Assembly (NCBI GenBank): GCA_026003195.1
Contig: BPGU01000003.1
Location: 536,763 to 600,762, forward strand
Origin: Armatimonadota bacterium
GTDB lineage: Bacteria > Armatimonadota > HRBIN16
DNA: 64,000 nucleotides
Reading direction: 5' to 3'
The notes beneath the pieces were generated by a model. That model saw nothing but the letters and a program-made list of their open reading frames with translations. It searched no databases and was not told where the DNA came from. The translations under genes and the position numbers were made by a program. Shown here piece by piece: positions 12,628 to 15,039 of this stretch (the stretch's first letter is position 1; each line of letters begins with the position of its first letter).

Positions 12628-12636
12628 TGGTATACT
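12628..12636 (+). promoter_or_regulatory. Extended -10 promoter of the fluoride-switched operon
   Basis: TGGTATACT gives an extended -10 (TG at 12628-12629, TATACT at 12631-12636). No good -35 is present, as is common with extended -10 promoters. Transcription would start about 10 nt before the aptamer. Confidence 0.55.
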
Positions 12637-12653
12637 AGAAGTAAGCATAGAAA

Positions 12654-12719
12654 GGGCGATGGAGGTCCGCCTGCCCTTCGGATGAAGGGCGAACCGCCAA
12701 AAGAGGCTAATGGCTCCTG
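12654..12719 (+). ncRNA. Fluoride riboswitch (crcB motif) aptamer
   Basis: The sequence fits the fluoride aptamer. Stem P1 is GGCG (12655-12658) with CGCC (12668-12671), enclosing a loop that starts ATGGAG. An extra hairpin (GCCCTTC..GAAGGGC, 12673-12690) follows, as in optional P2 elements. Then comes AACCGCC, a short AAAAGA loop, and GGCTAATGGCTCCTG. GGAG (12661-12664) can pair with CTCC (12714-12717) to make the pseudoknot. GCTAATGGCTCC is close to the family consensus GCTGATGRCTCC. This class binds Mg2+-coordinated fluoride. It lies about 45 nt upstream of the DUF6062-like gene and should control the five-gene operon. Confidence is high because P1, the pseudoknot, the 3' consensus and an expression platform are all present. 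Confidence 0.9.
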
Positions 12720-12744
12720 TTCGTGTGAACAGTGAGCCATTTTT
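12709..12744 (+). terminator. Riboswitch expression platform: intrinsic terminator
   Basis: AATGGCTC (12709-12716) pairs with GAGCCATT (12734-12741), with an inner CTGTTC/GAACAG stem, followed by a run of T to 12744. The 5' arm contains the CTCC needed for the aptamer pseudoknot, so terminator and ligand-bound aptamer exclude each other. Fluoride should therefore turn transcription on. Confidence 0.88.
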
Positions 12745-12764: not shown

Positions 12765-13397
12765 ATGCACCTGCCGGAGATGGCACTGGAAGAGGCGTTG
12801 AGAAGAGGCGAGTGCGCGCTGTGCTGGCTGGCGCATCAGCATCTGCTGCGTCGGGTGGACACGCTCTTCAGCGAGCACGTGCACGACCCGCACTGGCGAC
12901 AATCCCTGCGCGAAGGCAATGGTTTGTGTGCCTATCACGCCCGTCTGGTGCTCTCACGAGCGGATGTCCTTTCCCTGTCGATAATCGCCGAGGACGTGCT
13001 GGCTCATATATCGATAACTGTCCCAGCCCAACGGGCGCGCCATGCGTACTCCTGCCAGTTGTGTGACGCACTGGCGCATGATGTTGCGCAAGCAGCGAAT
13101 CTGCTGGCACAGCTGCTGCGTCAGGCGGAGTGGCGGGTGCGTTACGAGGCAAGTGAGGGGCTTTGCCTGCCTCACCTGCGGCAGGTACTACAAAGCGCGT
13201 CGTCAGAGGTGCAGATGTGGCTTGTCTCTCAGGAGAGCCAGCGATGGCAAGAGTTGCGCAAGCAGCTGCGGGAGGTTATCCGCAAACACGACTACCGCTT
13301 CCAGCACGAACCATGGGGTGACGAGGTGGGCAGTTGGCGGCGGGCAATTCACAAGCTCTACGGCATTTTTGCCGAGGAGGTGCACCATGAACGATAG
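12765..13397 (+). CDS. DUF6062-like protein with duplicated Cys/His motifs
   Basis: A 210-residue cytoplasmic protein with ATG 12765 after AGGGGG. It holds two repeats of the same pattern: Cys17-x2-Cys20 then GLC55-x2-His58, and Cys97-x2-Cys100 then GLC134-x2-His137. This could bind two metal ions. The C-terminal part KHDYRFQHEPWGDEVGSWRRA resembles the conserved end of DUF6062 proteins known mainly from Firmicutes; that assignment is from memory of the family. No activity is known. As first gene behind a fluoride riboswitch and 11-nt overlapped with the next gene, it is probably part of a fluoride response. It has no signal peptide or membrane helix. Confidence 0.8.
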   Translation: MHLPEMALEEALRRGECALCWLAHQHLLRRVDTLFSEHVHDPHWRQSLREGNGLCAYHARLVLSRADVLSLSIIAEDVLAHISITVPAQRARHAYSCQLCDALAHDVAQAANLLAQLLRQAEWRVRYEASEGLCLPHLRQVLQSASSEVQMWLVSQESQRWQELRKQLREVIRKHDYRFQHEPWGDEVGSWRRAIHKLYGIFAEEVHHER

Positions 13398-13842
13398 TCA
13401 TCGCAGACATCTCTTTGCCCTGCTGGTGCAGCTGGAAGATACGGTCAGCCGCATCACGCAGGCAGGCTGGATGGGCATCTCACCCTCTGGCGGTGGGCAG
13501 CGGCTGACCCCTCTCCCCCCCTCGCAGTGGCGGATGCTTCAGGAAGCCCTGGAGAGGCTGGTAGACAGTTACCACGATGCGATACACCGCCTGGTTCCCG
13601 AACTGACCCAGCAACATGAGCAGCCAGAGCCTATCGAAACCACCTATTACTGGTTGCGCCTGCTGCTGGGTAGCCTGCATGACTCCATCCTTCCTGAGCT
13701 GGACCCCGAACGCTTTGAGAGGCGATACGGGGAGCTGAACGAAGAGGAACGGGAGTTGCTCCGTCGGCTGCAGCGCACCATCGAGCGCGAACTGAAACAC
13801 GTGCAGGACCTCGCACAGATGCACTTCCTGCCGAAACGATAA
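13387..13842 (+). CDS. Unknown helical protein in the fluoride-switched operon
   Basis: A 151-residue protein starting at ATG 13387, inside the end of the preceding gene (11-nt overlap), after GAGGAGG. It is mostly charged and helical, with heptad-like stretches near both ends (LFALLVQLEDTVSRI and a final RRLQRTIERELKHVQDL). No catalytic motif, Cys pair, signal or membrane segment is visible and I recognise no family. Tight overlap with the DUF6062-like gene suggests translational coupling and perhaps a complex. A PERF-like 'LDPERFERRYG' segment stands out but I attach no function to it. Confidence 0.75.
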   Translation: MNDSHRRHLFALLVQLEDTVSRITQAGWMGISPSGGGQRLTPLPPSQWRMLQEALERLVDSYHDAIHRLVPELTQQHEQPEPIETTYYWLRLLLGSLHDSILPELDPERFERRYGELNEEERELLRRLQRTIERELKHVQDLAQMHFLPKR

Positions 13843-13860: not shown

Positions 13861-15039
13861 ATGAACGTCTGGTGGACGGCGTTTGTCTGGATAGCCCTGG
13901 CACTTGCCGCGTCGCTGGTTTCCGTACGGCTGGCGCTGAGTGTGGCTCTGGCGGAAATCCTGTTCGGCGTGCTGGGAGGTAACGTGTTGCACATCCGTCC
14001 CAACGAGTGGATTAACTTTCTGGCAGGGCTGGGCGGCGTACTGCTGACCTTTTTGGCAGGCGCGGAAACCGATCGGCGCGTGCTGCGCAGTGAGTGGAGA
14101 GGAGCAGTCGCGCTGGGTATGTTCTCTTTCCTTGCCGCGCTGGTCGCTGAAGTAGCGGTGGTTCGGTGGGCGATGGGGTGGACATGGAGCGCTTCGCTCC
14201 TCACGGGAGTCGCACTGGCTCCTACCTCTATTGCCATCGTATACACTGTGCTGATGGATACCGGCATGAACCGTGCACCTCTGGGTAGACGGATGTTGGT
14301 CGCCTGCTTCCTGTCCAATCTGGCTGCGATGGTGTTGTTGGGCTTGGTTTTTACCAAACCGAGCATGTGGCTAGCTGTGTACCTGATTGCTATTGTGCTG
14401 GCTGCCTGGATGGCGCCTCCCGTGAGCTCCTTCTTCTTTCAGAGGTTCGGCACACATGTGACCCACCCGCAAGCGAAGTACCTGTTGTTGCTACTTCTGC
14501 TGTTCAACAGCCTGAGTGCACTTGCTGATACGCAGGCGCTGCTAGCAGCTTACCTGCTGGGATGGACACTGTCTGCAGTGTTCTCGAAGCACCGTGAGCC
14601 GCTCCACCAGATACGCGCTCTGTCCTTTACTTTCTTCACGCCCTTTTACTTCCTGCGTGCAGGCACCTATGTACAGGCTTCCATTTTCTGGAGTGGTCTG
14701 ACGGTCATCCTTTTGCTACTGGGGCTTCGTATCCTGAGCAAAGCGGTAACATCCTACCTCGTTTGCCGACGGCTAAGAATGTCGCGCAGGGAATCGATAT
14801 ACACCTCACTGGTGATGAGCACCGGTTTGACTTTCGACATTATTGCTGCTGTTTTTGGTCTATCGCATGGCTATTTGTCCTCTTCCCAGTATACTCTGCT
14901 CATCGCGGTGACTATTGGCAGCGCGCTGGTTCCTACCCTCATCGCGCAGACCTTCTTCAAGCCGTTGGTGGAGGATGGAGAGCTGCCGCGTCCAGATATG
15001 CAGAGGCAAGCGAGCCTGGCTTACGGTGAGGAGAGATAA
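13861..15039 (+). CDS. CPA2-family cation/proton antiporter
   Basis: A 392-residue integral membrane protein with about 12-13 hydrophobic helices. ATG 13861 follows AAGGAGG. It resembles the Na+/H+ exchanger fold of the KefB/CPA2 type: LLTFLAGAETD near residue 65, ALAPTSIAIVYT near 120, and a C-terminal STGLTFDIIAAVFG segment. It lacks the TrkA-N (NAD-binding) domain of true KefB/KefC proteins, so it is the membrane part only. Such antiporters are among genes reported downstream of fluoride riboswitches. In this operon it could export fluoride directly or correct pH or cation balance when HF enters. It lies 18 nt after the helical protein and 13 nt before uspA. Confidence 0.86.
   Translation: MNVWWTAFVWIALALAASLVSVRLALSVALAEILFGVLGGNVLHIRPNEWINFLAGLGGVLLTFLAGAETDRRVLRSEWRGAVALGMFSFLAALVAEVAVVRWAMGWTWSASLLTGVALAPTSIAIVYTVLMDTGMNRAPLGRRMLVACFLSNLAAMVLLGLVFTKPSMWLAVYLIAIVLAAWMAPPVSSFFFQRFGTHVTHPQAKYLLLLLLLFNSLSALADTQALLAAYLLGWTLSAVFSKHREPLHQIRALSFTFFTPFYFLRAGTYVQASIFWSGLTVILLLLGLRILSKAVTSYLVCRRLRMSRRESIYTSLVMSTGLTFDIIAAVFGLSHGYLSSSQYTLLIAVTIGSALVPTLIAQTFFKPLVEDGELPRPDMQRQASLAYGEER

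Follow-up and report, generated by a model that had tools for sequence, protein, structure and literature searches.

Fluoride riboswitch regulons have so far been a dependable guide to fluoride biology, and the gene classes named in the fluoride-switch literature covered here are exporters, antiporters, enolase, pyrophosphatase and universal stress proteins (Usp). For the crcB motif, an ON-switch layout has been described (Weinberg 2010, PMC2864571). The same layout precedes an operon in an Armatimonadota genome of 4.58 Mb (G000), which we analyzed within a window of 64,000 nucleotides (C3:536763-600762); positions given for this operon are those of the window, and its features lie on the forward (+) strand.

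The aptamer, RF01734, spans 12646-12726 (cmscan 41.1 bits, gathering cut-off 34, full model 1-64) and is the sole fluoride switch detected in the host genome. A Rho-independent terminator hairpin at 12709-12744 folds with -20.8 kcal/mol (z -5.67); its 5′ arm reaches into the 3′ part of the aptamer, as in an ON-switch expression platform. A near-identical hairpin with GTTTTT or ATTTTT is found in six genus-mates. An extended -10 promoter element, TGGTATACT, was read in the sequence 5′ of the switch (12628-12636), and TGGTATAATA or a near variant stands at the equivalent position in six genus-mates; a sigma-70 scan, which needs a -35 hexamer, did not report it. A fluoride riboswitch had been implied by an earlier note on this DNA, and it is present 5′ of both genes with which that note was concerned. 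Aptamer and expression platform together place the element in RF01734 and predict fluoride-dependent expression. Without fluoride, transcription would end at the hairpin; fluoride bound to the aptamer would block hairpin formation, and the downstream genes would then be read.

The first of these genes (12765-13397) encodes a DUF6062 protein of 210 aa, which scores 77.7 bits against PF19538 (E 1.2e-21, gathering cut-off 27). The second, ORF2 (13387-13842), encodes a protein of 151 aa that is predicted to be helical and belongs to a family with no Pfam model, in keeping with its earlier description as an unknown helical gene. The coordinates first assigned to the pair (12765-13842) are right, and so is the 11-nt overlap claimed between them: the ATG of ORF2 lies at 13387 and the DUF6062 stop codon at 13395-13397. 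Downstream follow genes for a CPA2-type Na_H_Exchanger protein (13861-15039), a Usp (PF00582; 15053-15475) with an AGGAGG site at its start, and an MFS transporter (PF07690; 15538-16707), the final gene of the operon. The BioY gene after the MFS gene sits on the opposite strand, an order repeated in genus-mates. Promoter, switch, terminator and gene start are kept in six genus-mates, most of which also keep the gene order. In two members of the genus (G186 and G187) the order is DUF6062, ORF2, CPA2, Usp, GTPase, MFS, with the gene for a dynamin-like GTPase placed between those for Usp and MFS. Within the genus both lead genes are under purifying selection, with dN/dS values of 0.12-0.18 for DUF6062 and, reflecting stricter conservation, 0.04-0.12 for ORF2. 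A cytidylate-kinase-like protein (PF13189) also recurs in fluoride-switch operons (L127:11152-11718, with similar cases in G033 and G148).

The DUF6062 protein contains CxxC...CxxH twice, at residues 17-58 and 97-137, just as the earlier note had read it, with the ligand sets C17, C20, C55, H58 and C97, C100, C134, H137. The protein has six cysteines, each of them within one of these two units, and a single one of 200,000 composition shuffles yielded two such motifs. PF19538 members have in common this tandem motif and a C-terminal K-x-DYR...E...W/RA block, and both are found here, the block as KHDYR...GxExxSWRRA. The suggestion that the two halves form a structural repeat was borne out by two lines of evidence. 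First, profiles of the halves match by hhalign at 97.6% (E 4.6e-12 for a single comparison) and still at 88% after every Cys and His has been masked, so the likeness goes beyond the ligands. Second, an AlphaFold2 model (mean pLDDT 74, pTM 0.71, from an alignment of three sequences only) contains the same helix pattern twice, with helices 18-38, 42-49, 56-65 and 71-85 in the first repeat and, in the same order, 98-117, 121-128, 135-144 and 147-175 in the second.

Across a 34-member alignment of the family (A3), the eight Cys/His ligands and Met1 are invariant, and nothing else is. Among the 43 members with both motifs, the motif spacing is 38 in the first repeat (37 in one case) and 37, 39 or 41 in the second. 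Exceptions lie outside the 34-member alignment: one protein lacks the first Cys and is seemingly frameshifted (L106), one contains an ambiguous base (L141) and two are cut by contig ends (L103, L104), while in L105, also outside it, the first motif is recovered with an earlier start. Because all eight ligands are also kept in a Clostridia homologue (Monoglobus, annotated DUF6062), together with the C-terminal DYR...W block, the tandem Cys/His site is a trait of the DUF6062 family and not peculiar to the window gene. Candidate fold relatives were rejected: Foldseek returned no convincing solved structure (best E 0.22), the best VIA-align hit to the model (Z 5.5, a designed protein) is below the meaningful level for helical models, and the best match of the family profile to PDB sequences (E 0.026) was judged a chance match.

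The pairing of CxxC with CxxH in each repeat suggests that the tandem sites probably bind zinc, one ion per repeat. DUF6062 might use such sites to sense, buffer or chaperone metals and so offset the metal imbalance that fluoride complexes (MgF, AlF, CaF2) bring about. Beyond the two conserved four-ligand sets themselves, this explanation draws on the over-representation of divalent-cation transporters in fluoride operons (PMC11139923) and on the manganese-efflux gene, mntP, that adjoins the Clostridia homologue. However, the eight ligands are kept in members without a fluoride context, as expected for a structural site, and no DNA-binding domain or other regulator signature was detected in DUF6062; we therefore regard a metal-handling role as improbable. 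Still less probable, and in our judgment very unlikely, is that the CxxC pairs are redox-active, which would make DUF6062 a thiol switch, or a repair protein, that deals with secondary oxidative stress. Each CxxC and CxxH motif does sit at a helix N-terminus in the three-sequence AlphaFold2 model, but a CxxH follows almost every CxxC at a distance of about 38 residues, which is the pattern of a four-ligand metal site, and no thioredoxin-like domain was detected.

Fluoride switches and DUF6062 genes coincide well beyond this genus. In a set of 291 Armatimonadota genomes, DUF6062 was found in 42 and a fluoride switch in 93. The check that the earlier note had proposed, co-occurrence in other genomes, gave a clear outcome: in 24 of the 42 genomes DUF6062 follows a same-strand switch at a distance of less than 6 kb, where random placement predicts 0.042, and these 24 span 17 genera and 14 families. 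The cases without a linked switch include contig-edge genes (G218, G222). No adjacent fluoride switch was detected for a clade of 11 DUF6062 members in family f9, nor for the Clostridia homologue. Most of these switchless f9 genes follow a gene for a predicted membrane-anchored coiled-coil protein (L065, L071, L072, L079, L081, L083, L087 and L103), and several lie in a serA-gmhA-mutY cluster. The Monoglobus gene (L144:5545-6282) directly follows mntP. On the DUF6062 tree the fluoride label is clustered and needs at least four changes, which implies that the link was gained or lost several times. The fluoride link of DUF6062 is real in Armatimonadota, but it is not universal, and, as members without that link also exist, the family's basic role cannot be one specific to fluoride. 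Beyond the phylum, the picture is drawn from one Clostridia record; a scan of public contigs gave only two near relatives.

ORF2 recurs in a comparable setting. Two ORF clusters from fluoride operons proved to be homologous (hhalign 96.6%), and a search with an alignment of both found the family in 46 of the 291 genomes; in 30 of these it lies less than 6.5 kb downstream of a switch, and in nine directly after one. ORF2 is a recurring family of its own. Its AlphaFold2 model is poor (pTM 0.49, three sequences), and the best matches of its profile in the PDB are coiled-coil or designed repeat proteins. Assignment to the CorA Mg2+ transporters was rejected, with PF01544 scores of 12.3 bits for the window protein and 15.7 bits (E 0.0094) for the best family member against a cut-off of 27.

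These distributions bear on whether DUF6062 and ORF2 are general genes that merely travel in fluoride operons without contributing to tolerance. The DUF6062 genes without a detected switch, in the 11-member clade and in Clostridia, are what such an account can point to. Against it stand the number of genomes in which each family is switch-linked, the many families and varied operon partners involved, and the fluoride operons that each hold more than one DUF6062 copy (G005, G045, G257); we consider hitch-hiking highly improbable.

Within the operon, the CPA2 and MFS proteins stand out as candidate transporters. FluC (crcB, PF02537) and CLC (PF00654) were each detected in none of 10 genomes of the genus, by searches that found matches in 10 and 12 of 14 control genomes. 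At another locus, a gene encoding DUF190 fused to CBS domains (L090:2738-4006, four matched stretches) adjoins FluC. The window CPA2 protein scores 126.6 bits against PF00999 (cut-off 26.2) and is homologous to NapA (PDB 4bwz) over residues 12-376. In that alignment the lysine at the NapA K305 position is kept, and S152/N153 occupy the positions of NapA D156/D157. In NapA, cation/proton exchange depends on this aspartate pair. The S-N change is common to G181 and G184, with A-N in G180; it does not occur in G179, G183, G186 or G187, and most CPA2 proteins of fluoride operons in the phylum keep the aspartate (T/N-D). A second, Asp-bearing CPA2 copy was not found in the window genome at E 1e-10. 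CPA2 is also the least constrained gene of the operon (dN/dS 0.19-0.32); in G181 it is a fragment, and in G182 stops interrupt it. Judged from these sequences, the window CPA2 may be decaying or functionally changed.

The state of CPA2 matters for the alternative that DUF6062, together with ORF2, serves this transporter as a subunit for its regulation or assembly and so adjusts pH or ion balance when fluoride is present. A gap of 18 nt separates ORF2 from the CPA2 gene, and the two adjoin throughout the genus-mates with complete operons, and Na+/H+ antiporters are the next-commonest riboswitch-linked class after exporters (PMC11139923). Many switch-linked DUF6062/ORF2 operons nevertheless have no nearby CPA2 gene (G223, G224, G199, G056, G045, G055), and CPA2 has lost its aspartates in the window, evolves under the weakest constraint in the operon and is damaged in two genomes while ORF2 remains tightly conserved. 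A subunit role is, in our estimate, unlikely.

A different partner, a dynamin-like GTPase roughly 600 aa long (PF00350, PF21808), recurs in the DUF6062/ORF2 fluoride operons of the phylum. Counting one protein per genome, its closest homologues lie behind a switch in 18 of 23 genomes, and more distant dynamins do so in none of 10. In one genome the GTPase is fused to DUF6062: the open reading frame (L075:945-3632, 896 aa) has no internal stop, lies beside a switch and matches both PF00350 and PF19538 above cut-off. This is the one instance of that fusion, on a contig of 5.2 kb whose bin is 7% contaminated. GTPase-ORF2 fusions of 756-770 aa are encoded by three genomes, all from one family (L200:1144-3453, L201:5330-7597, L202:1933-4200), with no detected switch adjoining. 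That two independent types of fusion involve one and the same GTPase is the strongest argument for DUF6062 and ORF2 working in a single process, close to a membrane. A small hydrophobic protein (about 67 aa), probably with two membrane helices, recurs beside dynamin or ORF2 genes (L068:8244-8468, L099:8860-9051, L122:2323-2529, L141:10268-10468), and DUF6062 or ORF2 genes are repeatedly accompanied by one for a protein that combines a zinc ribbon with HEAT repeats (L070:9793-10197, L097:1107-1637, L105:6135-6623, L100:7548-8030).

In the window genome the homologue search did not find this GTPase, and a role that depends on it therefore cannot apply there as such. The PF00350 matches in that genome were rejected as dynamins, being short, low-scoring and confined to the first 36 model positions.

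The reading we favor, at a probability of roughly 0.45, is that fluoride induces a membrane-stress module in which DUF6062 and ORF2 have accessory roles. The evidence that points to it is the switch with its expression platform, the recurrence of both families behind such switches, the homologous repeats with their invariant ligands, and the fusions to the GTPase. The two proteins would be co-translated and act jointly, and the core of the module elsewhere in the phylum would be the dynamin-like GTPase. DUF6062 would serve as a tandem-repeat helical adaptor with one probable zinc site per repeat, and ORF2 as a helical protein that binds either DUF6062 or its partner. We infer that the two may form a complex and that they may dock on the GTPase. 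The position of switchless f9 DUF6062 genes after a membrane-anchored coiled-coil gene fits an adaptor role. During entry of HF or fluoride, the module could shield the inner membrane, remodel it or keep transporters in place within it. In the window genome, where the GTPase gene is absent, the pair would instead work with the CPA2-like protein, the MFS transporter, Usp or another GTPase.

A broader proposal, which we hold as tentative and rather doubtful, is that the GTPase, with the DUF6062 and ORF2 families as its dedicated accessories, constitutes an unrecognised form of fluoride resistance through membrane remodelling or repair, induced by switches across Armatimonadota and operating in this genus without a known fluoride exporter. 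A genus with a fluoride switch and no detectable FluC or CLC raises the question of how fluoride is removed, and the switch-linked families and GTPase fusions suggest a response to fluoride at the membrane itself. The recurrence of both families, together with the fusions to a shared GTPase, offers a testable functional lead for DUF6062.

In the literature searched, which did not extend to the 2012 survey of fluoride-riboswitch genes, we found no mention of DUF6062 and no paper joining a fluoride riboswitch with dynamin; a 2024 review of fluoride resistance mentions neither DUF nor dynamin proteins. Within that same literature the kind of operon is already known and the protein module was not found described. 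PF19538 is a family without assigned function, and its window member is tied to a fluoride switch, a context not found in the works covered. Bacterial dynamin-like proteins (PF00350/PF21808) appear in related operons as a partner, fused in four genomes to DUF6062 or ORF2, and the window genome differs in having no copy of the operon-associated GTPase. Recurrence beside switches and fusion to the GTPase suggest that bacteria defend themselves against fluoride in part by means not yet described. A match to the PADLOC candidate defence family PDC-S06 was set aside (E 7.9e-4, 16.1 bits, 112 of 732 positions), as it was not convincing over the full length. The window operon has the same ON-type aptamer and overlapping terminator as described fluoride-riboswitch operons (PMC2864571; Enterobacter cloacae FRM, PMC5533749) and, like them, places a Usp and a protein of a cation/proton-antiporter family under the switch. 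In contrast to those operons, it is without crcB/FluC, CLC, enolase and pyrophosphatase and carries instead DUF6062, ORF2, a CPA2 protein lacking the aspartates and an MFS transporter, to which related operons add the dynamin-like GTPase.
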